Of a stretch of 64,000 nucleotides of DNA, positions 4,175-21,240 are shown in pieces. The first letter of the stretch is position 1, and every line of letters begins with the position of its first letter. The notes beneath the pieces are model-generated. The model did not search any database and was not told the origin of the DNA. It saw only the letters and a program-made list of their open reading frames with translations. The DNA is from Streptomyces sp. B21-105 (GTDB taxonomy: Bacteria > Actinomycetota > Actinomycetes > Streptomycetales > Streptomycetaceae), in assembly GCF_036898465.1 (NCBI RefSeq), contig NZ_JARUMJ010000001.1, forward strand, positions 7,130,001-7,194,000, read 5' to 3'. Position numbers and translations under genes: made by a program.

Positions 4175-4999
4175 TCACGCCGGCTCGGTGCGGCGGCCGC
4201 CCTCCGGGATGACCAGGGGGGTGCCGGCGACAGGGCAGTCGATGACCGCGGCGCGCAGGCCGAAGACCTCCCGCACCAGGTCCGGAGTGACGATGTCCGA
4301 GGGGGCGCCGGCGGCGACGACCCGGCCGTCGCGCATGGCGATGAGGTGGTCGGCGTAGCGGCAGGCGAGGTTCACCTCGTGCAGGACCATCACCACCGTG
4401 CGCCCCTCGGTGCGGTTGAGTGCGGCGACCAGTTCGAGGACGTCGACCTGGTGGGCCAGGTCCAGGTAGGTCGTCGGCTCGTCGAGCAGCAGGACGGGCG
4501 TGTCCTGGGCGAGGGCCATGGCGATCCAGACGCGCTGGCGCTGGCCGCCGGACAGTTCGTCGATGGACCGGGTCGCGAGGTCCGTGGCTCCGGTGGCCGC
4601 CAGGGCGCCGTCCACGGCGGCCTCGTCGGAGGAGGACCACTGGCGCCACCAGCGCTGGTGGGGGGTGCGGCCGCGGGCCACCAGATCGCGGACGGTGATG
4701 CCGTCGGGTGCGCTGGGGGTCTGCGGGAGCAGGGCGAGGCGCAACGCGAAGTCGCGGGCGGACAGGCCGGCGATGTCCTCGCCGTTCAGGTGGACCGTGC
4801 CGCCAGCCGGCTTCAGGAGCCGGGCGAGGGCGCGCAGCGCGGTGGACTTGCCGCAGGCGTTGGGGCCGACGAGCGCGGTGATCTTCCCCGCCGGGATGGT
4901 CAGGTCGAGGTCGTCGGCGACCACGCGGTCGCCGTATCCGAGGCGCAGACCGGCGCCGGTCAAGGCGGCGGTGACGGCTTCGGTGAGCTGTGCGGTCAT
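4175..4999 (-). CDS. Ferric-siderophore ABC transporter ATP-binding protein (FepC-like)
   Basis: A 274-residue ATPase of the FepC/FecE type. Walker A is GPNACGKST (45-53), the signature is LSGGQRQR (149-156) and Walker B is VLLLDEPTTYLD (169-180). The spacing and the THY-L-D variant after Walker B are usual for siderophore and cobalamin importers. It energises import through the two FecCD permeases encoded directly upstream; the ATG at 4999 lies one base after the stop of the preceding permease. Expression is expected to follow the iron box upstream of the first permease. Confidence 0.92.
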   Translation of the reverse strand: MTAQLTEAVTAALTGAGLRLGYGDRVVADDLDLTIPAGKITALVGPNACGKSTALRALARLLKPAGGTVHLNGEDIAGLSARDFALRLALLPQTPSAPDGITVRDLVARGRTPHQRWWRQWSSSDEAAVDGALAATGATDLATRSIDELSGGQRQRVWIAMALAQDTPVLLLDEPTTYLDLAHQVDVLELVAALNRTEGRTVVMVLHEVNLACRYADHLIAMRDGRVVAAGAPSDIVTPDLVREVFGLRAAVIDCPVAGTPLVIPEGGRRTEPA

Positions 5000-5000
5000 G

Positions 5001-6131
5001 TCAGCCTCCCTTTCCGGCCCGGTTGGTCCGGGCGAGGAGCAGCAGCAGGTAGGGGGCGCCGACGGCGCCCGTGAGCACGCCGACGGGCAGTTCCGTCGGG
5101 GCCAGGACGGTCCGGGCGGCGAGATCGGCGAAGATGACCAGGACGGCGCCGGTGAGCGCGCTGCACACCATCGGGATGCCGGGGGTGCCCGCGAGCCGCC
5201 GGGCGATCTGCGGGGCGCCGAGGGCGACGAAGGCGATCGGGCCCGCCGCCGAGGTGGCCAGGGCGGTCAGGCAGGTGGCGAGGACGAGCAGCGCGATGCG
5301 GGCGTGGCGGAGCGGCACGCCGAGGCTGCGTGCGGTGTCGTCGTCGTACTGGAGCAGTTGGTACGGGCGGGCCAGCGCGACGGTCAGCGGCAGCAGCAGC
5401 GCGAGGGAGAGGCCCGCCCACTGGACGTGCTCGTAGCCGCGTCCGTTGAGGCTGCCGGTGAGCCACACCATCGCCCGGGAGGCCTGGTCGATGTCGGCGC
5501 GGGCGAGCATCCAGCGGGTGAGGGCGACGAGGGCGCCGTTCGCGGCGATGCCGACGAGGACGAAGCGGTAGCCGGTGATCGTGCCGTCCCGGAAGGCCAG
5601 GAGATAGATGACGGCGGAGGTGAGCAGCGCACCGGCCAGGGCCCCGAAGGGCACGGCCCCGAACGTCCCGGCGCCGGCGGACGCGACGCCGCCGATCAGG
5701 ATGGCGCCGACCGCGCCGACGCCGGCGCCCGCCGAGATGCCGATGAGGTCGGGGCTGGCCAGCGGGTTGCGGGTGACGGCCTGGTAGACGGCGCCGGCCA
5801 GCCCGAACGCGGCGCCGACCAGGAGGGCCGTCAGGGCGCGGGGCAACCGGAGTTCATGGATGATCAGGTCGGCGGCGCCGTCGCCGGCGCCGAGGACGGC
5901 ACCCAGGACCTCGCCGACGGGGATGGCGTACGTGCCGAGCGACACCGAGGCGACCAGGCCGGCGAAGCCCAGCAGGATCAGCACGACGAGAGTGAGTGCC
6001 ACCCTCAGGCGCACGGCCGCTCCGAACGGGCCGATCTCCATGCGCAGGGCCGTCGGCCGCGGGGTCGTCGGCCGCGGGGCCGTCGTGCGCGGCGTCTTCG
6101 TGCGCGGGGTCGTCGTGCGCGGGGTGCTCAT
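5001..6131 (-). CDS. Ferric-siderophore ABC transporter permease, FecCD family
   Basis: A 376-residue integral membrane protein with about ten hydrophobic segments. It has the FecCD signature region (GLAGAVYQAVTRNPLASP, then LIGISAGAG) that contacts the ATPase. The ATG at 6131 overlaps the TGA of the upstream permease (ATGA), which fixes the start. The first 30 residues are a hydrophilic Thr/Pro/Arg five-residue repeat encoded by a 15-nt tandem repeat; this is atypical for the family and probably a recent expansion. Second permease half of the heterodimeric channel. Confidence 0.92.
   Translation of the reverse strand: MSTPRTTTPRTKTPRTTAPRPTTPRPTALRMEIGPFGAAVRLRVALTLVVLILLGFAGLVASVSLGTYAIPVGEVLGAVLGAGDGAADLIIHELRLPRALTALLVGAAFGLAGAVYQAVTRNPLASPDLIGISAGAGVGAVGAILIGGVASAGAGTFGAVPFGALAGALLTSAVIYLLAFRDGTITGYRFVLVGIAANGALVALTRWMLARADIDQASRAMVWLTGSLNGRGYEHVQWAGLSLALLLPLTVALARPYQLLQYDDDTARSLGVPLRHARIALLVLATCLTALATSAAGPIAFVALGAPQIARRLAGTPGIPMVCSALTGAVLVIFADLAARTVLAPTELPVGVLTGAVGAPYLLLLLARTNRAGKGG
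6049..6128 (-). repeat. 15-nt tandem repeat coding the N-terminus of a permease
   Basis: About five copies of a 15-nt unit, with variants of GTCGTCGTGCGCGGG on the + strand, encode repeated T-P-R-T-x residues at the start of the permease. The repeat is in frame and stops just before the family's first membrane helix. Confidence 0.75.
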
Positions 6132-7216
6132 CGGGTGTGCTCCTTGAGCTTGCCGCGCTTGACCATCACGGCGAGGAACGGGGCTCCGAGCAGCGCGGTG
6201 ACCACTCCCGCCTCCAGTTCTCCGGGACGGGCGACCATGCGTCCGACGACATCGGCGGTGAGCATCAGCGTGGCGCCGCCGAGCGCCGAACAGGGCACCA
6301 GCCAGCGGGCGTCGGGACCGGTGAACGCCCGCACGACGTGGGGGACGACGAGGCCGACGAAGGTGACGGGCCCGGCCGCGGCGACGGCGGCCCCGGTGAG
6401 CAGGATGACCGCGACGGCGCCGAGGGCCCGGGTGGTCCGCACGCGGGTGCCGAGGGTGGTCGCGAGGTCGTCGCCGAGGGCGAGGGAGTTGAGCCGGCCG
6501 CTGAGTCCGATCGCGAGCAGCAGGCCGACGGCGATGAACGGCAGTAGTTCCAGGCCGAGTTGTGCGTCCCGTCCGGCGAGCGAGCCGACGGCCCAGAAAC
6601 GGAACTGGTCCAGGGTGCGGACGTCGAGCAGGACCAGCGTGTTGGTACCGGCGTCGAGCAGGACGGACACCGCCGCGCCGGCCAGGGCGAGCTTGGCCGG
6701 CGTGGCGCCGCCGTATCCGGTGCCGCCGACGGCGTACGCGATCAGTCCCGCGAGCGCCCCGCCGAGGAAGGCGAACCATATGTATTCGTACGAACTGGTC
6801 AGTCCGAAGGCCCCGATGCCGGCCGCGACGGCGAACGCCCCACCGGCGCTGATGCCGATGAGACCGGGATCACCCAGCGGATTGCGGGTGATGTCCTGGG
6901 CGAGGGCTCCGGCGGCGCCGAGCGCCAGTCCGACGAGGAGGCCCAGGAAGGTACGGGGCATACGCAGTTCGCGGACGACGACGGCGTCGCCGTCCGTTCC
7001 GCCGACGATCGCGTGCAGGACGTCGGAGAGCGGGACGGACTTGGTGCCGATGGCGAGCGAGGCGCAGGACACCGCGACGAGCGCGGCCACGAGAAGGACC
7101 GCGACGACGGCGCGCGGGGCGGCTCGTGGGGCGACTCGTGGGGGTTGGTGAGGTGGTGGGGCGGGCGGGGGCGCGGCGGCGGCCGAGTCGGGGACGGGCT
7201 TCACAGACACCTGCAT
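6128..7216 (-). CDS. Ferric-siderophore ABC transporter permease, FecCD family
   Basis: A 362-residue multi-spanning permease from the ATG at 7216. It has the FecCD motif (RNPLGDPGLIGISAGGAF) and the expected run of about ten hydrophobic helices after a Pro-rich N-terminal tail. It is the first gene of the minus-strand import operon (permease, permease, ATPase). The start is not certain. The ATG at 7216 has no ribosome site, and the iron box covers the bases just upstream and touches the start codon, so either the message is leaderless or translation begins a little downstream, for example at the GTG codons two and four residues later. Confidence 0.88.
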   Translation of the reverse strand: MQVSVKPVPDSAAAAPPPAPPPHQPPRVAPRAAPRAVVAVLLVAALVAVSCASLAIGTKSVPLSDVLHAIVGGTDGDAVVVRELRMPRTFLGLLVGLALGAAGALAQDITRNPLGDPGLIGISAGGAFAVAAGIGAFGLTSSYEYIWFAFLGGALAGLIAYAVGGTGYGGATPAKLALAGAAVSVLLDAGTNTLVLLDVRTLDQFRFWAVGSLAGRDAQLGLELLPFIAVGLLLAIGLSGRLNSLALGDDLATTLGTRVRTTRALGAVAVILLTGAAVAAAGPVTFVGLVVPHVVRAFTGPDARWLVPCSALGGATLMLTADVVGRMVARPGELEAGVVTALLGAPFLAVMVKRGKLKEHTR

Positions 7217-7234
7217 AAGGTAAGGCATGCCTAA
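7216..7234. promoter_or_regulatory. Iron box (DmdR/IdeR-type operator) for the permease operon
   Basis: The 19-bp stretch with the core AAGGCATGCCT agrees at 14 of 19 positions with the actinobacterial iron-box consensus TTAGGTTAGGCTAACCTAA. It overlaps the start codon region of the first permease, so Fe-loaded repressor would block the promoter directly. Confidence 0.7.
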
Positions 7235-7303
7235 CGGTTGTGTGTACGACCGTCCCGCCGTGTGGATCCGGCCGCGCGGAGCCGCTATTCTCACAACTCC
7301 GTC

Positions 7304-7322
7304 ATAGGTAAGCCTTACCTAA
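7304..7322. promoter_or_regulatory. Iron box for the binding-protein gene
   Basis: Fifteen of nineteen positions match the iron-box consensus, with the near-palindrome AGGTAAGCCTTACCT. It lies 26 nt upstream of the ATG of the siderophore-binding lipoprotein. With the box at 7216-7234 it gives each of the two divergent genes its own operator. Confidence 0.75.
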
Positions 7323-7347: not shown

Positions 7348-8346
7348 ATGAACACCCTCATCCAGCGCCGCCGACCCGGCCGGTTCGCCGCTGCCCTGCT
7401 CACCGCGGTCGTGGCCTTCTCCGTGGCCGCCTGTGGCGGCGGAAGCGGCGACGACGAGCCCGCCGCGGACAAGGCGGCCGCGGCCTCCGACGCGAGCTTC
7501 CCCCGCACCGTCACCCACGACAAGGGCAAGACCGAGATCAAGGCGAAGCCCAAGCGTGTCGTGGCGCTGGACAACAGCCTGGTCGAGGCCGTCGTCGCAC
7601 TGGACGCCCCGCTCGTGGGCGGCGTCGGCTCGTACCGGGACCAGAAGGGTTTCCCTCCGTACCTCGGTGACGCGGTGAAGGACACCAAGGACGTCGGCCC
7701 GCTCGACAGCCCGAACCTCGAGGCGATCGCCGCCCTGAAGCCGGACCTCATCGTGTCGGCGACGGTGCGTCACGAGGACCTCTACGACCAGCTGAGCAAG
7801 ATCGCGCCGACGGTCTTCGTGAAGACCACCGGCCCGATCTGGAAGGAGAACATCACCTTCCTGGGCACGGTGCTGGGCGAGGAGAAGAAGGCCGCGGACA
7901 AGCTCACGGCGTACCAGACGCGCGCGAAGAAGATCGGTGACGCGATCAACGCGAAGAATCCCAGGCAGACTTACTCGCTGGTCCGCTTCCTCGACGGTCC
8001 GACGCGCATCTACCTGCAGAAGACCTTCAGCGGCATCATCCTGACCGACATGGGACTCTCGCGTCCGGCGAACCAGCAGGACCCGGAGGAGTTCAACATC
8101 GAGATCAGCGAGGAGCAGATCGGCCAGGCCGACGCGGACCACATCTTCGTCACCACCTTCTCGGGCGGTGCGGAGCGCAAGGCGAAGTTCCTCGCCAACC
8201 CGCTGTGGAAGCGCCTGAAGGCGGTGCAGAAGGGCAACGTCCACGAGGTCGAGGACGCCACCTGGATGACCTCCGTCTCGCTCCAGGGCGCCGACCTGGT
8301 GCTCGACGACATGGCGAAGATCTTCAAGGTCGACCCGGCCAAGTAG
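7348..8346 (+). CDS. Iron-siderophore substrate-binding lipoprotein
   Basis: A 332-residue lipoprotein. Two or three Arg, a hydrophobic stretch and a lipobox ending at Cys29 (SVAAC) mark lipid attachment outside the membrane. The mature part has the FepB/FhuD fold pattern: RVVALDNSLVEAVVALDAPLVGG near the start, DLIVSATV in the first lobe, and a C-terminal lobe ending LDDMAKIF. It captures ferric siderophore for the divergently encoded permeases. The ATG at 7348 has a GGAG ribosome site four bases upstream, which favours it over an in-frame start 15 nt earlier. Regulated by the iron box just upstream. Confidence 0.92.
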   Translation: MNTLIQRRRPGRFAAALLTAVVAFSVAACGGGSGDDEPAADKAAAASDASFPRTVTHDKGKTEIKAKPKRVVALDNSLVEAVVALDAPLVGGVGSYRDQKGFPPYLGDAVKDTKDVGPLDSPNLEAIAALKPDLIVSATVRHEDLYDQLSKIAPTVFVKTTGPIWKENITFLGTVLGEEKKAADKLTAYQTRAKKIGDAINAKNPRQTYSLVRFLDGPTRIYLQKTFSGIILTDMGLSRPANQQDPEEFNIEISEEQIGQADADHIFVTTFSGGAERKAKFLANPLWKRLKAVQKGNVHEVEDATWMTSVSLQGADLVLDDMAKIFKVDPAK

Positions 8347-8465: not shown

Positions 8466-9350
8466 TCAGTCCGCGTCCTCGAGTCGGCGCAGCCGCTCGG
8501 CGTCGCGGGTCCTCGGGCAGGTCAGGCACGCCTGGTCCGGTTCGATCGCGTAGTACAGGCAGCAGCCGAGGCGAGTGCGGGTCGGGTAGCGGCGGCCGTC
8601 GCGCCCCGAGAGGCGTCGGAAGTCGGCCCCTCCCGGAAAGGGCGCGATCGCCGTCGGAAGCAGCTCGGTCGCCGCCCGCACCGCGTGCTCCTCCTGGTCG
8701 AGCATCCGGCCGAGGTACCAGACACCGGAGAGCAGATCGTCGGCGACCATGCCCCACAGGGCGCGCGGTCCGCGCCGGATCGACGGGCCGATCGCGGCCA
8801 GCAGCGGGCGTACGTGGTCGACGACCGCGGCCCGCAACTCGGCGCGCAACTCCTCCTCGTGGCCGACGGTCCGGGCGCCGGCGGCTCCCGCCGCCGGGTC
8901 GGCCGGCAGGCAGGCGAAGTCCTGCCCGGGGACGAGACCGATCGCGCCCGTCGTCAGGTCCACCCGGATGTCGCGCGGTGAGATGCGCGGCACGCGACGG
9001 TCCAGGTACCAGGCCCCGCTCATCAGCAGACTGACGGACCACAGGTACTCGTGCAGTGCCCGGGAGGCGGCGACGTCCCTGCGCGGGGCGTGGCCCCGGC
9101 ATGCGCGGACACGGGCCGCCGAGGCGTCGAGGAAGGAATCCAGCACGCCGGGGGCGCCGGCCAGTTGCGCTCCGTCGGGCATGGGCGCGGCGGGGTCGTC
9201 CGGCGCCCCCGGGCGGACGATCCGGGCGTCGAGCGCTTCGCAGACGGCGATGACGCGCAGGTAGGTGCCGGTGAGGGCGGACGCTTCGCCGGGGGCATCG
9301 CGCTCGGCCGTGCCCGCCGCGGCGGTCATCGACCCCGGACCCATCCTCAT
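8466..9350 (-). CDS. FhuF-type ferric-siderophore reductase ([2Fe-2S] protein)
   Basis: A 294-residue protein whose C-terminus carries Cys263-Cys264, ten residues, Cys275, two residues, Cys278 (CC..C.TCP). This is the iron-sulfur ligand pattern of FhuF-type ferric reductases, which release iron from imported siderophores in the cytoplasm. The rest is weakly conserved in the family, so the call rests mainly on this motif and the location. The ATG at 9350 has an AAGGAG site five bases upstream. The gene is divergent from the siderophore biosynthetic operon and has its own iron box. Confidence 0.8.
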   Translation of the reverse strand: MRMGPGSMTAAAGTAERDAPGEASALTGTYLRVIAVCEALDARIVRPGAPDDPAAPMPDGAQLAGAPGVLDSFLDASAARVRACRGHAPRRDVAASRALHEYLWSVSLLMSGAWYLDRRVPRISPRDIRVDLTTGAIGLVPGQDFACLPADPAAGAAGARTVGHEEELRAELRAAVVDHVRPLLAAIGPSIRRGPRALWGMVADDLLSGVWYLGRMLDQEEHAVRAATELLPTAIAPFPGGADFRRLSGRDGRRYPTRTRLGCCLYYAIEPDQACLTCPRTRDAERLRRLEDAD

Positions 9351-9373: not shown

Positions 9374-9392
9374 TGAGGTCAGGCTTACCTTA
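9374..9392. promoter_or_regulatory. Iron box for the ferric reductase gene
   Basis: TGAGGTCAGGCTTACCTTA matches the iron-box consensus at 15 of 19 positions and lies 24 nt upstream of the reductase start on the minus strand. Confidence 0.65.
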
Positions 9393-9500: not shown

Positions 9501-9519
9501 TTAGGATTGCCTAACCTAA
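9501..9519. promoter_or_regulatory. Iron box for the siderophore biosynthetic operon
   Basis: TTAGGATTGCCTAACCTAA matches the consensus at 16 of 19 positions, the best of the four boxes in this island. It lies about 80 nt upstream of the first biosynthetic gene, so the whole operon should be repressed when iron is sufficient. Confidence 0.78.
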
Positions 9520-9601: not shown

Positions 9602-10789
9602 ATGCGGCTGTATCTGCTCGCCCTGAACCCCACCGACTCGGTCACCGAGGGATTCCTCCCCGCAGCAGCCCGACTCGGTCTCGACGTCACCGTCCTGACG
9701 GACCGGCCCGCCGCCCACCGGGACCACCCGGACATCGAGATCCTGGAGTGCGACGTACGCGACTTCCGCGCCGTCATCACCAGGATCGCCACCCACCACC
9801 GGCCCGACGCGGTGTTCACCAACAGCGACCACCTCCAGACACAGGCGGCGCTGGCGGCGGAGTACTTCGGCCTGCCCGCCAAGGACTGGCGGGCCGCGCT
9901 GCGAGCCAAGGACAAGGCGCACCTGCGGCGCCATCTGGCCCTGACCGGAGCCGACACGGTCCGGTCGGCCGAACTCCCCGCCGGAGCGGATCCGTCCGTG
10001 CTCGCCGGACTCGACGTGCCGTTTCCGTGTGTGGTCAAGCCGCGCGAGGGCGTCGCCAGCGAGGACGTGGTCCTGGCCGCCGACAGCGAGGAACTCCTGC
10101 TGCGCTGCAAGGAGATACAGGCCCGGCGGCCCGAAGCGGCGCTGGTCGTCGAGGAGTTCCTGGCCGGCGAGCTGTACACCCTGGAGACGCTGGGCGACGG
10201 ACGCGTCCGGCACGTCCTGGGCGGATTCCACACCGAGCTGTCGCCGCCGCCGTACTTCATCGAGGAGCGGCTGACCTTCGTCCCCGCCCACCCCGAGCCG
10301 GTCGCCGAGCAGATCCTCGCCCAGCTCGACGCCCTCGGAGTCGGCTTCGGCGCCTGTCACACCGAGTTCGTCGTCCACGAGGGCCGGGCCCGCATCATCG
10401 AGGTGAACTACCGGGCCATCGGCGACCAGTGCGACCTGCTGCTCGCCCAGCTCCTCGACATCCCGCTCTTCGAGCACATCCTGCGCACCCACCTCGGGGA
10501 GCCGCTCCCCGCGGACCTCGGCGCCCGCACCGACGGCGCCGCCCGCCTGGAGTACCCCTGCGCCGAAGCCGCCGGCACGCTGGTGTCCGCCCCGGGCCCC
10601 GTCGACCTCGACGTCGACGGCGTGAGGCTGACCTACCGTCCGCTGCGCGAGACCGGCGAGCGCCACGAGCTCCACCACACCAACCGCGACTATCTGGGCG
10701 TCCTGCGCGCCACCGGCACCGACCAGTCGACCGTCGACCGGGTCGCCGCGGACTTCCTGGCCGCGCGGCGCTGGGAGATCGCCCCGTGA
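9602..10789 (+). CDS. ATP-grasp ligase of the siderophore operon
   Basis: A 395-residue ATP-grasp protein. Visible elements are the ATP-binding Lys in VVKPREG (about 145-150), the VVEEFLAGELYTLE segment and the metal-binding strand RIIEVNYRAIGDQ (about 264-276). Such enzymes activate a carboxylate as acyl phosphate and couple it to an amine. It is the first gene of the operon and its TGA overlaps the GTG of the next gene. Its substrate is unknown. Characterised NIS operons such as staphyloferrin, aerobactin and desferrioxamine do not rely on a stand-alone ATP-grasp enzyme as far as I know, so it may add an extra amide bond. An upstream in-frame GTG at 9554 exists, but the family-like sequence starts at 9602. 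Confidence 0.8.
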   Translation: MRLYLLALNPTDSVTEGFLPAAARLGLDVTVLTDRPAAHRDHPDIEILECDVRDFRAVITRIATHHRPDAVFTNSDHLQTQAALAAEYFGLPAKDWRAALRAKDKAHLRRHLALTGADTVRSAELPAGADPSVLAGLDVPFPCVVKPREGVASEDVVLAADSEELLLRCKEIQARRPEAALVVEEFLAGELYTLETLGDGRVRHVLGGFHTELSPPPYFIEERLTFVPAHPEPVAEQILAQLDALGVGFGACHTEFVVHEGRARIIEVNYRAIGDQCDLLLAQLLDIPLFEHILRTHLGEPLPADLGARTDGAARLEYPCAEAAGTLVSAPGPVDLDVDGVRLTYRPLRETGERHELHHTNRDYLGVLRATGTDQSTVDRVAADFLAARRWEIAP

Positions 10790-12567
10790 CGACACTCGCC
10801 GCAACGGCTCCCGGCCAGGCCGGCACGGCGGAGCGGGACCTGCTCCTGCGGGTCCTGTCCGCGCTGCTGCGGGAGGACGTCGTCGGGCTGCGCAGCCGGA
10901 GCACCCTCGTCCAGCGGGCGGACGGCCCGTGGCTGCGCCGCACCTCGCAAGACGGTGACACCCTGCTGATGCCGGTCGCCGAGGACGGCTTCCAGAGCGC
11001 GTACGCGGCCCGGCTGCCGCTGCTCGTCCGGGAGGCGGACGGCAGCCGGCTCACCACGTACGACGAGATCGTCGGCGCCCTCAAGGACCTGGCCGAGCCG
11101 GTCGACCACCCCGGCTTCGACGCGTACACCGAGGAGTGCCGGCAGACCCTCGCCACCATGCGGCTGCACGAGCGGACCCGCGAGGAGACCGCCGCACGGC
11201 TCACCGCCTGCCACGGGGGCGACCCCGCCCGCTGGACGGGTCACGCGGGAGGGCTCGCGCACGACACGCTCGCCGCGCGTCTCGATCATCCCGTGTACCC
11301 GACGGCACGCGGCCGCGCGGGCCTGGACGACGACCAGGTGCGGGCGTACGCACCCGAGTTCCACCCGCGTTTCGCGCTGCACTGGGTCGCCGTGCCGCAC
11401 GAGTCCGTCACCGTGCCCGGCGGCGCCGACCACCGGCCCGCCCGCTGGCCCACGCCGGCCGAACTGGGACTGCCGGAGCTCTCCCGGACCCATCTCGCGC
11501 TGCCCGTCCACCCGCTCACGACGGGCGCGCCACTGGAGGAGGCGCTGCGGGCGACCGGCCTGCACGAGCGCGCGGTGCTCGCCCCGCGCCCGCACCTGGA
11601 CGTCGTACCGACGCTGTCCATGCGGACCGTCGCCCTGGCCGACGAACCGTCCCTGCACCTCAAGCTGCCGCTGGCCACCGCGACCCTGGGCCTGCGCAAC
11701 CGACGCACCATCAAGCCCGGAACCCTCGTGGACGGTGCGGCGGGACAGCGACTCCTCGAGACCGTGATCGCCCGGGAGCCACGCTTCCGGGAAGCGATCC
11801 TGCACGCCGACGAGACGGTGTACGCCCACGCCGGGCACGAGCTCCTCGCCGTCCTGTGCCGCCGCTACCCCGCCGGCCTCGACGACTGCGTCATCGTCCC
11901 CATGGCGGCACTGCTCAGTGAGGCGCCCGGCGGCCGGCTGGTCCTCGACCACCTTGCGGACCGGTTCCACGGCGGGGACCCGGTGGCCCTGCTCGACGCC
12001 GTGCTCACCCTGCTGTTCGACTGGCAGACCACGCTGTTCGGCCATGGCATCGCCCTGGAGTCGCACCAGCAGAACATCTCGCTCGTCTGGGACCGGGGTA
12101 CGAACGGCGGCAACCGGCTCCGGCTGCTGCTGAAGGACAACGACGGCCCGCGCGTCAACCTCCGCCGACTGCGGGACAGCCTGGGCGCCGACGCCCCCGA
12201 CCCGGCCGAGTTCGACGACGCCCGCGTCTTCGGCGACGACGACCGGGCCGTCACCGACCTGTTCACCACCATCACCGTGCACCTGTGCGCGGGCGCCTAC
12301 GCCTTCGGCCTCGCCCGGCACGGCCGCGCCCCGCTCAGGACGCTGCTGGCGCTGGTACGGGACCGGCTCTCCGAGGCCGTCGAACGGCTCGGCACCGCTC
12401 CCGGCGAGCCCGGCGCCGTACTGCGCGCGCACCTCCTGGACGCGCCGGAACTTCCGGTCAAGGCCATGGTCACCGCCGGAACGCTGCTGTCCAAGGAACG
12501 GTCGGGCGCCGCCGACGTCAACAAGCACTACACCACCGGCCCCAACTACCTGAGGACCGAACGTTGA
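10786..12567 (+). CDS. IucA/IucC-family NIS siderophore synthetase (first)
   Basis: A 593-residue NRPS-independent siderophore synthetase. NIS enzymes adenylate a carboxylate (often citrate) and condense it with an amine or alcohol. Motifs include LPVHPLTTG (about 239-247), a LKLPLATATLGLRNRRT block near 290, ESHQQN near 424 and the metal-site KDNDG near 449. The HPLT variant in place of HPWQ suggests a different subtype from the second synthetase in this operon. The GTG start at 10786 overlaps the TGA of the ATP-grasp gene. The start is confirmed by loss of family-like sequence upstream. Confidence 0.9.
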   Translation: MTTLAATAPGQAGTAERDLLLRVLSALLREDVVGLRSRSTLVQRADGPWLRRTSQDGDTLLMPVAEDGFQSAYAARLPLLVREADGSRLTTYDEIVGALKDLAEPVDHPGFDAYTEECRQTLATMRLHERTREETAARLTACHGGDPARWTGHAGGLAHDTLAARLDHPVYPTARGRAGLDDDQVRAYAPEFHPRFALHWVAVPHESVTVPGGADHRPARWPTPAELGLPELSRTHLALPVHPLTTGAPLEEALRATGLHERAVLAPRPHLDVVPTLSMRTVALADEPSLHLKLPLATATLGLRNRRTIKPGTLVDGAAGQRLLETVIAREPRFREAILHADETVYAHAGHELLAVLCRRYPAGLDDCVIVPMAALLSEAPGGRLVLDHLADRFHGGDPVALLDAVLTLLFDWQTTLFGHGIALESHQQNISLVWDRGTNGGNRLRLLLKDNDGPRVNLRRLRDSLGADAPDPAEFDDARVFGDDDRAVTDLFTTITVHLCAGAYAFGLARHGRAPLRTLLALVRDRLSEAVERLGTAPGEPGAVLRAHLLDAPELPVKAMVTAGTLLSKERSGAADVNKHYTTGPNYLRTER

Positions 12568-13913
12568 GTGCCACCGCCGCCCCTCCGAACGGCACCGCCG
12601 CAGCCGCCGCCTCCGCGACGGACCCCGTACTCGCCCGCCGGCAAGTGCACGCCGTGGCCGGATGCTACTTCGTGGCGTCCTTCGCCGCCCTCGGCCTGCC
12701 GCCCTTCCTCACCGAGATCCTGCCGGAGCTCGGTGACCCCACCGCCCGCTGGGCCGGCGTGCTCTACGTCGTCCCGACCGTCTTCGGCGCCGTCGGCGCG
12801 CCCCTGTGGGGCCGTCTCGCGGACCGGTACGGCCGCAGGCGGCTGCTGCTGCGCGCGCAGCTCGGGCTCGCCGTGTCGTTCCTGCTCGCGGGCTGGGCCG
12901 ACTCGATCGCCACCTTCACCGCCGCACTCGTCCTCCAGGGCATCCTCGGCGGCACGTTCGCCGCGTCCAACGGCTACCTGGGGGCGGCACTGGAGGGCCC
13001 GGCCCTGTCGAAGGCGCTCACCCTCATGCAGGGCGCGGCGCGCGCCGCTCTCGTCGTCGCGCCGATCGTCGTCGGCTCCCTCTCGCCCTGGCTCTCCCCG
13101 CACCGCCAGTACGCCCTGCTGGCCGTGCTGCCGCTCACCGCTGCCCTGTTGATCTGCGCGCTGCCGGAGTCCCGGGGCGAGCGCGCCGGGACCCCGAGGG
13201 CGCAGGACGCGCCGGAGGCGGACGCGGAGATGGACGAGGAGGCGGACGACGAGGCGCAACCGTCACCGCGGACGGCACCGGCACCGGCTTCGTCACCGGC
13301 ACCGGCTTCGGCTTCGGCACCGGCACCGGCTTCGTCACCGGCACCGGCGACGTCTCTGCGGGCCCTCTACGCCCTGGAGTTCGTCTTCGTCTTCTCCACC
13401 GTCATCTCCTTCCCGTACCTCGTCGCGCTCATCGAGGAGCGGCTGCCCGGCACCTCCCCGGCCGTCTCAGGTGTCCTGTTCGCCCTGCCGCACCTTTGCT
13501 ATCTGGTCACGGCGATGGCGGTGCACAAAGCGTTCCACCGCCGACCCCGGCTCGGTCTCGCCCTCGGCTTCCTCTGCATCGCGCTCGGTCTCGCCGGACA
13601 CGGCGTCGCCGTCTCGCTGGCCGCCCTCACCGCCGTACGTCTCGTGCTCGGAGCGGGCCTCACCCTCGGGCTCGTGTGTCTGTCCGTGCTGGCCGCCGAC
13701 TGCGCCAAGGGCCGGTCACCCGGCGGCATGTTCGGCTCGCTCGAGTTCTTCTCGAAGGCCGGGGCCGTCGCGGCAGGCGTCGCCGCCGCGGTCGGCAACG
13801 GCTTCTTCGGACCGGCCGCCCCGGTCCTGACGGGCACCGTCGTGGCCATGGCCGTGATCGTTCCCGTCGCTCTGCCCCTTGTGAACCCCCTCCGCACGCG
13901 CTGGAGCCGTTGA
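12564..13913 (+). CDS. MFS transporter, putative siderophore exporter
   Basis: A 449-residue major facilitator with about twelve hydrophobic helices and the loop 2-3 motif GRLADRYGRRRLL. The central cytoplasmic loop is lengthened by an acidic stretch followed by an Ala/Pro/Ser tandem repeat (about residues 210-270). Its position between two NIS synthetases indicates export of the finished siderophore, as for SbnD or SfaA. The TTG start at 12564 overlaps the previous TGA and has GAGG eight bases upstream; no ATG or GTG in this frame fits before the first helix. Confidence 0.85.
   Translation: MSATAAPPNGTAAAAASATDPVLARRQVHAVAGCYFVASFAALGLPPFLTEILPELGDPTARWAGVLYVVPTVFGAVGAPLWGRLADRYGRRRLLLRAQLGLAVSFLLAGWADSIATFTAALVLQGILGGTFAASNGYLGAALEGPALSKALTLMQGAARAALVVAPIVVGSLSPWLSPHRQYALLAVLPLTAALLICALPESRGERAGTPRAQDAPEADAEMDEEADDEAQPSPRTAPAPASSPAPASASAPAPASSPAPATSLRALYALEFVFVFSTVISFPYLVALIEERLPGTSPAVSGVLFALPHLCYLVTAMAVHKAFHRRPRLGLALGFLCIALGLAGHGVAVSLAALTAVRLVLGAGLTLGLVCLSVLAADCAKGRSPGGMFGSLEFFSKAGAVAAGVAAAVGNGFFGPAAPVLTGTVVAMAVIVPVALPLVNPLRTRWSR
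13275..13352 (+). repeat. Ala/Pro/Ser-coding tandem repeat in the MFS central loop
   Basis: Hexamer-based repeats of the type GCACCGGCTTCG and GTCACCG fill the central loop of the transporter without breaking the frame. Copy number probably varies between strains (inference). Confidence 0.6.
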
Positions 13914-15649
13914 TGTCGCAGCCCCGACCCCAGGGCATCGCCACCCGCCCGCCCGCCGAACTGCCCGACGCGGACACGACGGTGGCGCACACCCTCCTCA
14001 ACTGCCTGCTGCGGGAGGTCTCCGGACCGGAGCACCAGACGGCAGCCAGCGACGGCCACCTCCTGTTGCGCCTGCCTCGCGCCGGCGTGCTGCTGCGCGT
14101 GGCGCTGCGCCGTACCTCCCTGCTCGGCGCGCACCGCTTCGCCGGCCCCGTCCACGAGCAGCGGGACGGCGCATGGGAGCGCATCGACTGGCGGCGCCTC
14201 GCCGAACACGTCCAGGACGAGCTGTCGTTGCGCACCGGGGTGCGCAACGACGAGTTCCTCGGCCAGATCGCCTCCAGCCACCAGGCCGTCACGGCGGCGC
14301 TCGCCGCCCGCGCGACCGGCACCGTCCACCAGGACACCTACCTCGCCTCGGAGCAGTCCCTGCTCTTCGGCCACCGGTTCCACCCCACCCCCAAGGCCCG
14401 CACCGGTGACGCCGCCTCCTGGCTCACGTACGCCCCCGAGGTCGGCGCGTCCTTCCGCCTGCGCCACCTCGCCGTCCGCGAGAACCTGATCGTCGAGGAG
14501 AGCGCCGACCCGGCGGCCACAGCGCGCCTCGACCGGCTCGCCGACGGCGTACCGGAGGGCTACCGTCTGCTGCCCGTGCACCCGTGGCAGTACGAATTGC
14601 TCAGCGACCACCCGGCGCTGCGCGCCGCCCTGGACCGCGGCGACATCCTGGACCTCGGGACCGGCGGCGTCCCCTTCGCCGCCACGGCCTCCGTCCGCAC
14701 CCTCTACGACGGTGACGTGTTCCTCAAGTTCAGCCTGAACGTCCGCATCACCAACTGCCTGCGCAAGAACGCGAGTTACGAGCTGGCCGGCGCGGTGGCC
14801 CTGACCCGGCTCGGCGCACCCGTTCTCGACGGGCTGACCGACCGGTTCCCCGGCAGCGCCATGCTCCGCGAGCCCGCCTACCGCAGCCTCGCCCTGCCCG
14901 GCCCCGACGGCACGCCGGACCAGGACCTGCTCGAAGGCTTCGGCGTGATCGTCCGCGAGGGGCTCGCCGCCCGGCTGCTGCCCGGCACCACCCCGCTCCT
15001 CGCCGCCGCCGTCGCCGACGAGTACCCGAGCGGACCCGGCCACATCTCCCGCCTCCTCGACGACGCGAGCCCCGGCATCGCGCTCGACTGGTGGGCCGCG
15101 TACCTGAAACTCCTCGTCCCGCCAGTCCTGGCCGCCTACTTCGATCACGGCCTGGTCCTGGAACCCCATTTGCAGAACGTGGTCGTCTGCGTCGACGACG
15201 ACGGCATGCCCGCCCAGGTGCTCTTCCGCGACCTGGAGGGCACCAAGCTGGTGCCCGAGCACCACGCCGACACCCTCGCCGCGCTGCCCTCCGCGGTGGC
15301 CGGGCCCATGACGTACGACGCCGAGCGCGGCTGGGACCGTGTCGCGTACTGCCTGTTCGTCAACCACATCGCCGAGATGCTGGCCGCCGTCGCCGATCTG
15401 CACCCGCAGACCGAGCCCGCGCTGTGGGCCCAGGTCCGCGCCACCCTCCAGGCGTACGCCGACCGCCACGGCTGCCCGCCCCGGCTCGCCGCGCTCCTCG
15501 CCGGCGTCCCGCTGCCCGCCAAGGCCAACCTGCTCACCCGCTGGGAGCGCAAGGCCGACCGCGAGGCCGGTTACGTCCGCCTGCCCTCCCCCTTCGCCGA
15601 GGACGTGCTGTCCGAGGCCGCCGACCACTCGTGGAGCCACGCCCGATGA
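13913..15649 (+). CDS. IucA/IucC-family NIS siderophore synthetase (second)
   Basis: A 578-residue NIS synthetase of canonical layout: VHPWQYE near 221-227, FLKFSLNVRITNCLRKN near 270-286, LEPHLQN near 414-420 and FRDLEG near 436-441. The KFSL..RITN and EPHLQN motifs build the ATP and carboxylate site. It differs clearly from the first synthetase, so the two likely perform successive condensations on different groups. ATG at 13913 overlaps the TGA of the exporter (TGATG). Confidence 0.93.
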   Translation: MSQPRPQGIATRPPAELPDADTTVAHTLLNCLLREVSGPEHQTAASDGHLLLRLPRAGVLLRVALRRTSLLGAHRFAGPVHEQRDGAWERIDWRRLAEHVQDELSLRTGVRNDEFLGQIASSHQAVTAALAARATGTVHQDTYLASEQSLLFGHRFHPTPKARTGDAASWLTYAPEVGASFRLRHLAVRENLIVEESADPAATARLDRLADGVPEGYRLLPVHPWQYELLSDHPALRAALDRGDILDLGTGGVPFAATASVRTLYDGDVFLKFSLNVRITNCLRKNASYELAGAVALTRLGAPVLDGLTDRFPGSAMLREPAYRSLALPGPDGTPDQDLLEGFGVIVREGLAARLLPGTTPLLAAAVADEYPSGPGHISRLLDDASPGIALDWWAAYLKLLVPPVLAAYFDHGLVLEPHLQNVVVCVDDDGMPAQVLFRDLEGTKLVPEHHADTLAALPSAVAGPMTYDAERGWDRVAYCLFVNHIAEMLAAVADLHPQTEPALWAQVRATLQAYADRHGCPPRLAALLAGVPLPAKANLLTRWERKADREAGYVRLPSPFAEDVLSEAADHSWSHAR

Positions 15650-16851
15650 CCGCCCCCACGCGCGCGGTGCGCGCCCTCGTCCGCGACCTGTCCTGCGACG
15701 GCCTGCCCGCCTACGTCTACGACCTCGCGGCGCTGCGCGAGCACGCCGCCGCCGTGCGGGCCGCGCTGCCCGAGCGCGTCGAGCTCTACTACGCCGCCAA
15801 GGCCAACCCCGAACCGGAGCTGCTGGCCGCGCTCTCGCCGTACGTCGACGGATACGAGGTGTCGTCGGGCGGCGAGCTCGCCCACGTGGGCCGCGCCGTG
15901 CCCGGCCGCCCCCTCGCGTTCGGAGGTCCCGGCAAGACCCCGGCCGAGATCACCGCTGCCCTGGACCTCGGAGTGGAGCGTTTCCACGTCGAGAGCCTCC
16001 ACGAGCTGCGCATGCTCGCCGATCTGGCCGCCCGCAGGGCCCCGGACACCCCCGTCGGCGTCCTCCTGCGGTTCAACCTGCCCCTGTCCGCCGCCTCTCT
16101 GGAGGGCAGCTCCCTCGCCATGGGCGGCCGGCCGGCCCCGTTCGGCCTCGACCCCTTGGACGCCGACACCGCCGTCGCCCTGCTGGCCGACGGCACGTTC
16201 CCGCACCTGCGGCTCCTGGGCGTCCACGCCCACCTGGCCAGCGGCCTGGAGGCGCAGGAGCAGATCGACGTCGCCGAGTCGGTCGTCGACTGGGCCACCG
16301 CCCTCGCCGCCCGGCACCGCGTCCGCCTCGCCGAGGTCAACGTCGGCGGCGGTATGCACGTCGACTACACGACCCCCGACCGCCGCTACGACTGGGACAC
16401 CTACGGCAAGGGGCTCGCCCGGCTCGTGGAGCACCACCCGGACCTGACCCTGCGCATCGAACCGGGCCGAGCGCTCACCGCCTACTGCGGCTGGTACGCC
16501 ACCGAGGTCCTGGACGTGAAGCGCAGCCACGGCGAGGACTTCGCCGTCGTGCGCGGCGGCACGCACCACCTGCGCACCCCGGCGACCAAGGGCCACGACC
16601 AGCCCTGCTCGGCGCTGCCCGTGGAGGCCTGGCCCCACCCGTGGCCCCGGCCCGCCGCCGGATCCGGCACGGTCACCCTGACCGGCCAGCTGTGCACCCC
16701 CAAGGACCTCCTCGCCCGGCGGGTTCCGCTGCCGGGCCTGCGGGCGGGCGACAGGGTGGCTTTCAGCGTCGTCGGCGCGTACGCGTGGAACATCTCGCAC
16801 CACGACTTCCTCATGCACCCCCCGCCGGGGTTCCACTTCGTCGGCTGGTAG
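15646..16851 (+). CDS. Fold-type III PLP-dependent decarboxylase
   Basis: A 401-residue alanine-racemase-like barrel decarboxylase (ornithine/DAP/arginine class 2 group). Lys52 in YYAAKANPE binds PLP, EPGR near 275 binds the phosphate region, and CTPKD with Cys350 and Asp354 supplies the second-site catalytic residues. GAYAWNISHHDF lies near the C-terminus. In staphyloferrin B synthesis SbnH of this family decarboxylates a citryl-diaminopropionate intermediate; in other pathways free amino acids or carrier-bound substrates are used. Here it probably supplies or trims the diamine part. Last gene of the operon, overlapping its predecessor by 4 nt. Confidence 0.88.
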   Translation: MTAPTRAVRALVRDLSCDGLPAYVYDLAALREHAAAVRAALPERVELYYAAKANPEPELLAALSPYVDGYEVSSGGELAHVGRAVPGRPLAFGGPGKTPAEITAALDLGVERFHVESLHELRMLADLAARRAPDTPVGVLLRFNLPLSAASLEGSSLAMGGRPAPFGLDPLDADTAVALLADGTFPHLRLLGVHAHLASGLEAQEQIDVAESVVDWATALAARHRVRLAEVNVGGGMHVDYTTPDRRYDWDTYGKGLARLVEHHPDLTLRIEPGRALTAYCGWYATEVLDVKRSHGEDFAVVRGGTHHLRTPATKGHDQPCSALPVEAWPHPWPRPAAGSGTVTLTGQLCTPKDLLARRVPLPGLRAGDRVAFSVVGAYAWNISHHDFLMHPPPGFHFVGW

Positions 16852-17247
16852 GTCTCCGTCAGGTCGTCCTGGCGACTCGCGGCGAAGGCGTGTCCTTCGT
16901 CGAGCCACTGGCCGAGGACGGTGTCGGGCGGCCGGTCATGTCGAAGACGCGCGTGCCGGGGCCGCGTCGGTGTTGTCCGGACCGGCCCGCACCATGGCAG
17001 CCGGCGCTCGGAGTGGGACGCCGGCTGCCGGCCGGGGACGGACAATCCCGAGCACCGCTGAGCCGAGCCTGCGCTGCGGATCTCATGGCGGACGGCTCCA
17101 GCCCGTGCACGGCACCGGGCTCCCACCCGCGCCCGAGAGGCCGCCGTAAGCATTCCGTCATCACCTCCGGGACACGGAACGGCCGCCCGCTTCTGTTGGA
17201 TGGGGAGGGACAGGCCACTTCCAGGAAGAGAGGCGGGGGATGGGCGC
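16852..17247. other. Intergenic region after the siderophore operon
   Basis: No gene can be supported here. It holds the hairpin at 16996-17029. A short GC3-rich stretch on the minus strand around 16860-16940 could be the tail of a lost gene, but I recognise no family. Confidence 0.5.
16996..17029. terminator. Hairpin, probable terminator of the siderophore operon
   Basis: An 11-bp perfect stem (16996-17006 with 17019-17029) and a 12-nt loop, 145 nt past the decarboxylase stop. There is no T-run, as is usual in Streptomyces. Confidence 0.55.
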
Positions 17248-17817
17248 GTGCGAAAACTACTGAGCAGGCCGTTGGTCATCGTGGTGCTGATGGTGGCGGT
17301 TGCCGGAGCCGGCTTCGGGGCGTACTGGTTCCAGCCGTGGAAGCTGTGGCAGGACGAGACCGTCGAGGAGGCCCTGCCTGACACCGTCGAGACCTCCCCA
17401 CCTCCTGCCGGGGTGCCGTCGAAGGAAGAGCCCTCCGAGCAGCCCTCGCCGACCACCAGTGGTCCGCAGACGCTGGCGAGTGGTGACCTGATCAGCCACG
17501 AGCACGCGACATCGGGCACAGTGAAGCTCGTAAGGCTGGCCGACGGCTCCCACGTCGTCCGGCTGGAGAACCTCGACACCAGCAACGGACCGGACCTGCG
17601 TGTCTGGCTGACCGACGCGCCGGTGAAACAAGGGAGGGCAGGGTGGCACGTCTTCGACGACGGAAAGCACGTCAGCCTCGGCAAGCTCAAAGGCAACAAG
17701 GGAAGCCAGAACTACGCGCTGCCCAGTGACGTGAACTGGTCGAGCTACAACAGCGTGAGTATCTGGTGCGACCGTTTCGACGTCTCATTCGGCGCCGCCG
17801 AGCTCGCCCGTCTCTGA
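17248..17817 (+). CDS. Membrane-anchored DM13-domain protein
   Basis: A 189-residue protein with one N-terminal membrane helix (residues 8-25), a Pro/Ser/Glu-rich spacer and a DM13 domain (about 80-189): HATSGTVKL, VVRLENLDTSNGPDLRVWL and a single Cys in SIWCDRF near the C-terminus. DM13 domains are proposed redox modules outside the membrane; their function in bacteria is unproven. The GTG at 17248 has a GGGGG ribosome site; an upstream ATG at 17200 would add a hydrophilic tail before the helix and is less likely. Confidence 0.8.
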   Translation: MRKLLSRPLVIVVLMVAVAGAGFGAYWFQPWKLWQDETVEEALPDTVETSPPPAGVPSKEEPSEQPSPTTSGPQTLASGDLISHEHATSGTVKLVRLADGSHVVRLENLDTSNGPDLRVWLTDAPVKQGRAGWHVFDDGKHVSLGKLKGNKGSQNYALPSDVNWSSYNSVSIWCDRFDVSFGAAELARL

Positions 17818-18126: not shown

Positions 18127-18201
18127 CGATGGATGGACAGCACACGTGACGCCGGGCGCACGGGCCCCACAGCGACACGCTCACGACGAGAGAGGAAGAC
18201 C

Positions 18202-19779
18202 ATGGCCGCACCGGAAGCGGAAACGGAAGCGCAGCGGATAGGCATACCCGCCGAGTCCACCGCGGGCGAGACGAGAGTTGCGGCGACACCCGCCACCGCG
18301 GCCCGACTTGTCGCCCTCGGATACCACGTGGTCGTCGAGGCGGGAGCGGGAGAGTCGTCCCGCTTCCCGGACGCGGCCTACGTACACGCGGGCGCCCGAC
18401 TCGGCGACCCCTGGGCGGCGGACATCGTCCTGAAGGTCAACGGCCCCTCGAACGAGGAGATCGGCCGACTGCGCGACGGAGCGACGCTGATCGCGCTGAT
18501 CGGCCCCGCACTGCACCCGGAACGGGTCGAGGAACTGGCGCGGCGCCCGATCACCGTGCTCGCCATGGACGCCGTCCCACGCATCTCACGCGCCCAGTCC
18601 CTCGACGTCCTCAGCTCGATGGCGAACATCGCCGGATACCGGGCCGTGGTCGAGGCCGCGCACGCCTTCGGCCGCTTCTTCACGGGCCAGGTCACCGCCG
18701 CCGGCAAGGTGCCGCCGGCCAAGGTCCTGGTGGCCGGCGCGGGTGTGGCCGGACTCGCCGCGATCGCCGCGGCCCGCAGCCTCGGCGCCGTCGTCCGCGC
18801 CACCGACCCCCGGCCGGAGGTCGCCGAACAAGTCCGCTCGCTGGGCGGCGAGTTCCTGGCCGTGCAGTCCAGGCAGGAGACCGGCGCCGACGGGTACGCC
18901 AAGGCCACCTCCCACGACTACGACCGGCTCGCCGCGCAGCTCTACGCCGAGCAGGCGGCCGAGGTCGACATCATCGTCACCACCGCGCTCGTCCCGGGCC
19001 GGCCCGCGCCGAAGCTGATCACCGCCGAGGACGTCGCGCGCATGAAGTCCGGCAGCGTGATCGTCGACATGGCCGCGGCCCAGGGCGGCAACGTCGAGGG
19101 CACGGTCGCCGGTACGGCGGTCGTCACCGACAACGACGTGACGATCATCGGCTACACCGACCTGCCCGGCCGGCTCCCCGCCCAGTCGTCCCAGCTGTAC
19201 GGCACCAACCTCGTCAACCTGATGAAACTCCTCACCCCCGGCAAGGACGGCCGGCTCGTCCTCGACTTCGACGACGTCGTACAGCGGTCGATGACGGTGG
19301 TCCGCGACGGCGAGAAGACCTGGCCGCCGCCTCCGGTGCAGGTGTCCGCCGCGCCCGCCCCCGCCGCGGCCCCGGAACCCGCCACGCCCCCCGACCTGCA
19401 GGCGAAGCCCGCACGGTCCGCCCCGTCCGTACGGTCCGCGCGGTCCGGGTACGCGCTCGTCGGCGCCGGAGCCCTCGCGCTCTTCCTGGTGACCGCCTTC
19501 TCGCCGCCCCCACTCGTCGCCCACTTCACGGTCTTCGTCCTGGCGATCGTCATCGGCTTCTACGTCATCGGCCAGGTGCACCCCGCGCTGCACACCCCGC
19601 TGATGTCGGTCACCAACGCGATCTCCGGGATCGTCGTGGTCGGCGCGCTGCTGCAGATCGGGCAGGGGGACACCGCCGTCACCGTGCTGTCGTTCGCCGC
19701 GATCCTGCTGGCGAGCATCAACATCTTCGGCGGGTTCGCCGTCACCCGCCGCATGCTCGGCATGTTCTCGAAAGGCTGA
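18202..19779 (+). CDS. pntA: NAD(P) transhydrogenase subunit alpha
   Basis: A 525-residue PntA with both parts fused as in E. coli. An NAD-binding domain with [18 protein letters not shown] (about 175-192) is followed by a Pro/Ala linker near 380-410 and four membrane helices in about 414-525. With PntB it forms the proton-driven enzyme that reduces NADP+ with NADH, supplying NADPH. The ATG at 18202 has GAGAGG upstream and begins just before the first conserved strand ([15 protein letters not shown]). pntB follows after 6 nt, so the two are co-transcribed. Confidence 0.95.
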
Positions 19780-19785
19780 TCACGG

Positions 19786-21240
19786 ATGACCACCACCACG
19801 GCCGCACACGCCGCCTACGTCGTCGCCGCGCTGCTGTTCGTCCTCAGCCTCGCCGGACTCTCGCAGCACCGGACCTCCCGCTCGGGCATCGTCTGGGGGA
19901 TCACGGGCATGGTCATCGCGCTGACCGCCACCGTCGGCCTCGCCTCGCGCACCGTCACCGGCACCGGCCTCGTGCTGACCGCCGTCGCCATGGCTCTCGG
20001 CGCGGGCATCGGACTGTGGCGCGCCCGGGTCGTCGAGATGACCGGCATGCCGGAGCTGATCGCCGTCATGCACAGTCTCGTCGGCCTCGCCGCGGCGCTC
20101 GTCGGCTGGAACGGCTACCTCGACGTCGAAGGCGCGGGCGGCCACGCCGGGCAGCAGCTCACCGGCTCGCTGCTGCGCATCCATCACGCCGAGGTCTTCA
20201 TCGGCGTGTTCATCGGCGGCGTCACCTTCACCGGTTCGGTCGTCGCCTACCTGAAGCTGTCGGCGCGCATCAGGTCCAGCCCGCTCATGCTCCCCGGCAG
20301 ACACGCCCTCAACCTCGGCGCCCTCGCCGCGTCCGCAGTGCTCACGATCGCGTTCGTCACGCGCCCCCACCCGGCACTGCTGGTCGCGGTCGCCGCGGTG
20401 GCCCTGGCCCTCGGCGCGCATCTGGTCGCCTCCATCGGCGGCGGCGACATGCCGGTGGTCGTCTCGATGCTGAACAGCTACTCCGGCTGGGCCGCCGCGG
20501 CCTCCGGCTTCCTGCTCGACAACGACCTGCTGATCGTCACCGGCGCGCTGGTCGGCTCCTCCGGCGCCTACCTGTCGTACATCATGTGCAAGGCGATGAA
20601 CCGCTCCTTCCTCTCGGTGATCGCGGGCGGCTTCGGTGTCCAGGCGGTGGCGGGCGAGGACGGCGACCACGGGGAGCACCGGGAGATCAGCGCGCTGGGC
20701 ACCGCGGAACTCCTGCGCGACGCGTCCTCGGTGATCATCACGCCGGGCTACGGCATGGCGGTCGCCCAAGCCCAGTACCCCGTCGCGGAGCTGGCCCGCA
20801 AGCTGCGCGAGCGCGGCGTCGAGGTGCGGTTCGGCATCCACCCGGTCGCCGGCCGGCTGCCCGGGCACATGAACGTGCTGCTCGCCGAGGCGAACGTGCC
20901 CTACGACATCGTCCTGGAGATGGACGAGATCAACGACGACTTCGCCGCCTCCTCGGTCGTCCTGGTCATCGGCGCCAACGACACCGTCAACCCGGCCGCC
21001 GCCGAGGATCCGGCCAGCCCCATCGCCGGGATGCCGGTACTGCACGTGTGGGAGGCGGTCGACGTGATCGTCTTCAAGCGCTCCATGGCCACCGGATACG
21101 CCGGGGTGCAGAACCCGCTGTTCTTCCGGGAGAACACCCAGATGCTGTTCGGCGACGCCAAGCAACGGGTGGAGGACATCCTGCGCAGCCTCGACGCCAC
21201 GGACGCCCCGGCCCCGGTCATGGCCGGCGCGAACGGCTGA
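19786..21240 (+). CDS. pntB: NAD(P) transhydrogenase subunit beta
   Basis: A 484-residue PntB. About nine membrane helices fill the first 290 residues, followed by the soluble NADP-binding domain. Typical elements are [13 protein letters not shown] in the membrane part, [10 protein letters not shown] in the NADP site, [10 protein letters not shown] and a final GYAGV.NPLFF. Length is close to E. coli PntB (462). The start is six bases past the pntA stop. No further gene belongs to the unit. Confidence 0.96.

Follow-up and report, generated by a model that had tools for sequence, protein, structure and literature searches.

The closest described counterpart of the locus reported here is pvsABCDE, the operon that makes the siderophore vibrioferrin. 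The passages of PMC5812596 that concern this system list PvsA to PvsE for Vibrio parahaemolyticus, those of PMC5577590 review the gene disruption and heterologous expression by which the role of the pvs genes was assigned, and a paper on ATP-grasp enzymes (PMC4431377) cites the vibrioferrin work, where it mentions it, for ATP-grasp bond formation in siderophores. We analyzed a 64,000-nucleotide stretch of DNA (the window), which spans positions 7,130,001 to 7,194,000 of contig 1 of a 9.2-Mb genome (Streptomyces sp. B21-105; G000 in our set), and found in it a five-gene operon for nonribosomal peptide synthetase-independent siderophore (NIS) synthesis that, judged by its sequence, is very probably the actinobacterial version of pvsABCDE. 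The achromobactin (AcsD) and staphyloferrin B (SbnC and SbnH) systems supply the closest named relatives of single enzymes of the window, but their gene sets differ from that of the window. Staphyloferrin B and achromobactin clusters contain three NIS synthetases each, and to our knowledge neither includes an ATP-grasp ligase.

The five genes are intact and overlap successively by 4, 4, 1, and 4 bases (Table 1; start codons are the most likely ones). Each encoded family scored above its Pfam cutoff: ATP-grasp_4 for the ATP-grasp ligase (34.2 bits; cutoff, 27), IucA_IucC for both NIS synthetases (110.9 bits for NIS-1 and 165.3 bits for NIS-2, with FhuF also found in both), MFS_1 for the major facilitator superfamily (MFS) transporter (93.3 bits), and Orn_Arg_deC_N and Orn_DAP_Arg_deC (94.8 and 60.2 bits) for the fold-type III pyridoxal phosphate (PLP) decarboxylase. 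An earlier note on this DNA had placed five overlapping genes at 9602..16851 and described the two synthetases as dissimilar. Gene calls and Pfam returned the same genes at the same coordinates, and NIS-1 and NIS-2 are 26% identical across 357 aligned positions (33.5 bits). Also in keeping with that note, no hydroxylase, acyltransferase, or citrate-synthase-like gene was recognized among the larger frames between about 1.6 and 22 kb, an inspection of translations by eye, with Pfam for the main genes, rather than an exhaustive annotation. Hydroxamate NIS clusters, such as those for aerobactin and desferrioxamine, carry N-hydroxylase and acyltransferase genes; a hydroxamate product was rejected here because neither was recognized in the inspected flanks (partly by eye). 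The operon is real and was correctly read, its vibrioferrin-type pathway is already known, and its host is Streptomyces-like.

Below, the letters A to E denote genes by their PvsA to PvsE counterparts. Two Vibrio plasmid loci carry, on one strand and in this order, genes for an ATP-grasp enzyme, an IucA/IucC synthetase, an MFS transporter, a second IucA/IucC synthetase, and a type III PLP enzyme. The ATP-grasp gene stands at the place of pvsA, which contradicts the earlier note's statement that known NIS systems lack such a partner. The vibrioferrin operon and that of the window agree in gene set, order, strand, and enzyme families and in having iron importer genes nearby; as in the window, no citrate-synthase-like gene is annotated beside the two Vibrio plasmid operons. 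The two differ in protein sequence (31 to 44% identity) and in TonB receptors, of which each Vibrio plasmid locus has two, whereas none was recognized near the operon of the window. Set against the vibrioferrin operon, a feature of the window is its iron boxes, which we take to be DmdR/IdeR-type operators. Across 14 Vibrio loci, which represent other Vibrio species than V. parahaemolyticus, identities were 37 to 41% for A, 31 to 34% for B, 33 to 37% for C, 32 to 36% for D, and 41 to 44% for E (at least 75% of the protein covered; 13 or 14 of the 14 loci per gene).

The wider comparison comprised 88 loci, all found via the ATP-grasp gene: eight plasmid records and the best 80 of 556 confirmed loci in named genomes. 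The named genomes were scanned using a PvsA alignment whose first sequence is from Vibrio, and because only the best 80 loci were taken, the sample leans to Vibrio-like sequences. Seventy-six of these 80 had the five genes on one strand in the order A-B-C-D-E. Of the other four, contig ends truncate L070, L112, and L122, and in L110 the D-E pair precedes A-B-C. The 80 loci come from Vibrio, Marinomonas, Pseudomonas, Azotobacter, Dyella, Xanthomonas, Kosakonia, and other genera, and in 79 of them the ATP-grasp protein is 36 to 44% identical to that of the window over at least 75% of its length. Among the plasmid records, five had the order A-B-C-D-E (two of them Vibrio) and three the order A-B-D-E (Nonomuraea, Embleya, and S. 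chartreusis). Chance adjacency of the five genes was rejected, given the collinearity, on one strand, of 81 of the 88 loci. The clusters of Cupriavidus necator H16 pHG1, Rhodococcus pRWAY01, and Pantoea soli are collinear like that of the window; an aldolase/citrate-lyase-family gene, perhaps a dedicated citrate supply, adjoins the Pantoea (L008), Cupriavidus (L009), and Rhodococcus (L010) operons, whereas none was recognized in the window.

This comparison of gene order with known clusters removes the novelty claimed by the earlier note. The note had itself said that its proposal would fall if the same genes were known from a system whose product is published; because the Vibrio pvs loci share the set and vibrioferrin is published, this is what was found, at the level of the gene set. 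Its proposed carboxylate or mixed product with an additional amide survives in part: a carboxylate NIS pathway with an extra amide made by the ATP-grasp enzyme is the best reading, but the accompanying idea of a new system is contradicted. The operon most likely encodes a carboxylate NIS siderophore pathway, one that appears to be already known from other hosts rather than a new kind of system.

Relationships of the single enzymes were assessed against solved structures and NCBIfam models. The ATP-grasp protein was nearest, if weakly, to L-amino acid ligases among solved structures (best match, 3vot, 38.2 bits) and, in NCBIfam, to an argininosuccinate-lyase subfamily (150 bits; cutoff, 625). 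NIS-1 was closest to staphyloferrin B SbnC in NCBIfam (66.5 bits, far below the 700-bit cutoff) and to chain 7cbb among solved structures (37.9 bits), which we take to be SbnC as well; SbnC uses 2-oxoglutarate. The best NCBIfam match of the MFS protein was the rhizoferrin exporter FslB (56.9 bits; cutoff, 600), and its gene occupies the position of the MFS gene in the two Vibrio plasmid loci. The best solved relative of NIS-2 was AcsD, which joins citrate to L-serine (247 bits, against 111 bits for IucA, the next different protein), with conserved stretches including the TAS-RT, LNVRITNC-RKN, and EPHLQN regions; its best NCBIfam model was SbnF (53.8 bits, far below the cutoff of 900). The decarboxylase matched 6knh and 6knk (282 and 279 bits; next different protein, BtrK, 136 bits) and, in NCBIfam, the exosortase-associated decarboxylase TIGR03099 (210 bits; cutoff, 478). 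6knh is presumably SbnH, acting on a citrylated amino acid. AcsD and 6knh as nearest solved structures would fit a citryl-serine route.

From gene content, gene order, homology, and operator-like sites, we infer the repression, substrates, step order, product, and uptake by the neighboring importer along the following lines. Upon iron starvation, the iron-box repressor would be released from the operon. NIS-2 (PvsD) would then join citrate to L-serine via an ester, and the resulting O-citryl-L-serine would be converted by the decarboxylase (PvsE) to citryl-ethanolamine. The ATP-grasp enzyme (PvsA) would place L-alanine on the amine, forming an L-alanyl amide, and NIS-1 (PvsB) would add 2-oxoglutarate. 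The product, predicted to be vibrioferrin or a close analogue, would be exported by the MFS protein (PvsC); the neighboring importer and the FhuF-type protein would retrieve the ferric complex and release its iron.

Several observations weigh against equating the operon with pvsABCDE. The best NCBIfam matches of all five proteins fall below curated cutoffs; for the ATP-grasp enzyme and the decarboxylase, the matched families are not indicative of siderophores, and the best match of NIS-2 is SbnF, not an achromobactin model. In 22 of 40 same-genus loci, no MFS gene lies between the NIS genes, and an export role of the MFS protein is therefore not universal. The actinobacterial loci also sit on a long branch of the locus tree described below (0.61), which leaves room for a substitution of one of the amino acids or acids built into the product. 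Finally, in their passages on this pathway, two reviews (PMC5577590 and PMC6836290) have serine decarboxylated first and PvsA forming the ester, and the first of them calls the functions of the pathway enzymes untested. Our enzyme matches favor one of these two competing assignments of pathway steps, and from them we infer the ester-first order in preference to that of the reviews.

The long branch, with its clade support of 1.0, and an ATP-grasp enzyme only 36 to 44% identical to its counterparts in the 80 named loci would agree with an analogue of vibrioferrin in which another residue replaces L-alanine or serine, or another acid replaces 2-oxoglutarate. All five enzymes nevertheless retain order and family, and NIS-2 and the decarboxylase retain AcsD and 6knh as best solved matches; we regard such an analogue as possible but unlikely. 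It is likewise unlikely that the actinobacterial clade as a whole has diverged towards a vibrioferrin analogue of its own and that its exporter is exchangeable, although 22 of the 40 same-genus loci either lost the MFS gene between the NIS genes or never possessed it. Were the ATP-grasp gene only an accessory, the product could instead resemble staphyloferrin B or achromobactin; in favor of this stand the best matches of NIS-1 to SbnC, NIS-2 to AcsD, and the decarboxylase to 6knh. However, the operon combines two NIS genes with an ATP-grasp ligase rather than the three NIS genes of those clusters, no diaminopropionate-forming genes were recognized in the inspected flanks, and the ATP-grasp gene stays with the other four in collinear loci, which makes this product highly improbable. 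As for the truly new NIS pathway of the earlier note, sequence divergence from Vibrio is all that speaks for it, whereas gene set, order, and families are those of vibrioferrin loci. Given this collinearity, we rejected the idea that a unique ATP-grasp partner marks a new NIS logic, and we give a new pathway of any sort almost no credence.

To return to the vibrioferrin-type operon, its upstream region contains iron importer genes and putative iron boxes (Table 1). With a 19-position iron-box consensus, the + strand of the 64 kb held only four sites with at least 14 matching positions, starting at 7216, 7304, 9374, and 9501; a search of both strands with a pattern form gave five matches (four sites, one of them matching on each strand), versus 0 in 100 shuffles. 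The substrate-binding protein, the two FecCD permeases, and the ATP-binding cassette (ABC) ATPase together form a predicted complete ferric-siderophore importer. Against the Fe(III)-dicitrate substrate-binding protein model, the binding protein scored 142.7 bits (cutoff, 320). The FhuF-type protein is proposed, from its motif, as a ferric-siderophore reductase; in 26 of the 40 same-genus loci, a homologue of it is encoded divergently, upstream of pvsA.

Table 1. Coordinates of the operon, the neighboring iron-related genes, and putative iron boxes in the window
Feature	Position	Strand	Remarks
ATP-grasp ligase, PvsA-type	9602-10789	+	ATG start, 395 aa
NIS synthetase 1 (NIS-1), PvsB-type	10786-12567	+	GTG start, 593 aa
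MFS transporter, PvsC-type	12564-13913	+	TTG start, 449 aa
NIS synthetase 2 (NIS-2), PvsD-type	13913-15649	+	ATG start, 578 aa
Fold-type III PLP decarboxylase, PvsE-type	15646-16851	+	ATG start, 401 aa
Putative iron box before operon	9501..9519	+	16/19 consensus positions
Putative iron box before divergent FhuF-type gene	9374..9392		15/19
Putative iron box before substrate-binding protein gene	7304..7322		15/19
Putative iron box, start of permease genes	7216..7234		14/19 on +; exact pattern match on -
FhuF 2Fe-2S C-terminal motif protein	8466-9350	-	PF11575, 23.5 bits (cutoff, 20.5)
Iron-siderophore substrate-binding protein	7348-8346	+	Peripla_BP_2, 109.9 bits; frame open from 7333
FecCD permease 1	6128-7216	-	287.7 bits for 6131-7243; start uncertain, ATG at 7216
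FecCD permease 2	5001-6128	-	287.1 bits
ABC ATPase	4175-4999	-	ABC_tran, 110.4 bits

Farther out, Pfam identified aldehyde dehydrogenase and 2-hydroxyacid dehydrogenase genes. On the 3′ side of the operon are a DM13-domain protein (17200-17817, +; 113 bits), which may be unrelated, genes resembling the NAD(P) transhydrogenase alpha subunit and encoding its beta subunit (18133-21240, +; AlaDh_PNT and PNTB domains), and a glycosyl hydrolase of family 43 with a ricin-type lectin domain (21590-23116, -), an ordinary layout for a secreted polysaccharidase. None of these outer neighbors (dehydrogenases, transhydrogenase pair, glycosyl hydrolase, DM13 protein) suggests a further siderophore gene.

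Within Actinomycetota, 99 of 392 genomes sampled in the genus of the window carried a PvsA relative (E ≤ 1e-60). A sample across the phylum gave 3 of 396, namely the genome of the window and two others of its genus, and among 120 listed ATP-grasp relatives every organism name shown was Streptomyces. Forty loci chosen from 101 PvsA matches in the genus comprised 17 with A-B-C-D-E, 22 with A-B-D-E, and 1 (L143) with A-B only. Adding the window, Rhodococcus, and three further actinobacterial records brought the total to 45 actinobacterial loci, divided into 19, 25, and 1, respectively. Of the 25 A-B-D-E loci, 24 had an iron-box site with at least 13 of 19 matching positions no more than about 400 bases before A; of the 19 A-B-C-D-E loci, only 3 did (the window, L145, and L010), both counts lacking a shuffled control. 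Homologues of the permeases and binding protein were located upstream on the same strand in 15 of the 19 A-B-C-D-E loci and are 36 to 52% identical to the importer proteins of the window; the permease genes of the window and of L145 are instead oriented divergently.

A FastTree phylogeny of four concatenated proteins from 120 of 129 loci, rooted on Vibrio by choice with no outgroup and including named loci picked by similarity to a Vibrio protein, grouped the 43 actinobacterial loci into a single clade, with Cupriavidus as its neighbor (support, 1.0 for both groupings). MFS-containing and MFS-less actinobacterial loci were intermixed in it, as judged by eye. This outgroup-free tree of a selected sample would fit a single arrival of the operon in Actinomycetota, after which the exporter was lost or gained repeatedly.

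A "vibrioferrin-like" avs cluster of S. avermitilis, SAVERM7320-7323, appears in the gene table of PMC9394381 with three "siderophore synthetase components" and a diaminopimelate-decarboxylase-like gene. The four genes of that table include no MFS gene and none named ATP-grasp, and the cluster was therefore dropped as an instance of the same five-gene operon; as far as the table goes, it fits the MFS-less A-B-D-E form. A vibrioferrin-like region (18%) is given, apparently in a table for S. tunisialbus, in PMC7385001. Of two further papers on Streptomyces, PMC11219617 does no more than mention vibrioferrin, and PMC9022529 names it in the reference list only. We found no isolation of vibrioferrin from Streptomyces in the literature searched, which does not establish its absence. 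PMC7527475 reports a tentative detection of vibrioferrin in one soil and names Azotobacter as earlier producers in culture; Streptomyces would thus be a further candidate source. The operon extends a siderophore type known from marine and soil Proteobacteria to about a quarter of the sampled genomes of this genus. The general picture of NIS siderophore making is unchanged by the operon.

Six IucA/IucC matches were found genome-wide in G000, all on contig 1, at 3.58, 6.85, 7.14 (two, those of the window), and 7.56 Mb (two), and several NIS siderophore pathways are therefore probably present. Those outside the window sit hundreds of kilobases from the operon. At 7554500-7557750 of contig 1 (L165:8500-11750), a PvsD-like synthetase, 40% identical to NIS-2, adjoins a second NIS match on the opposite strand; the frame L165:8455-10104 (-) gave no Pfam match and is probably the wrong frame choice. 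In the A-B-only locus (L143:6318-17081; G060, contig 10), the proteins of a second PvsA/PvsB-like pair are 62% and 54% identical to those of the window, and D and E are missing. Nearby open reading frames match the TauD dioxygenase, FAD-binding oxygenase, and MFS families, and one has a weak, below-cutoff match to arginine deiminase; this locus possibly represents another pathway in which the ligase pair is reused. The PvsA match of L144 (G348, contig 1, 1024986-1026172) is split between two separate open frames, which points either to an interrupted gene or to an assembly error at this place. On the S. chartreusis plasmid, a gene of ABC exporter type (L013:6051-7805; ABC_membrane plus ABC_tran) lies near the A-B-D-E cluster and could replace the exporter in that MFS-less cluster.

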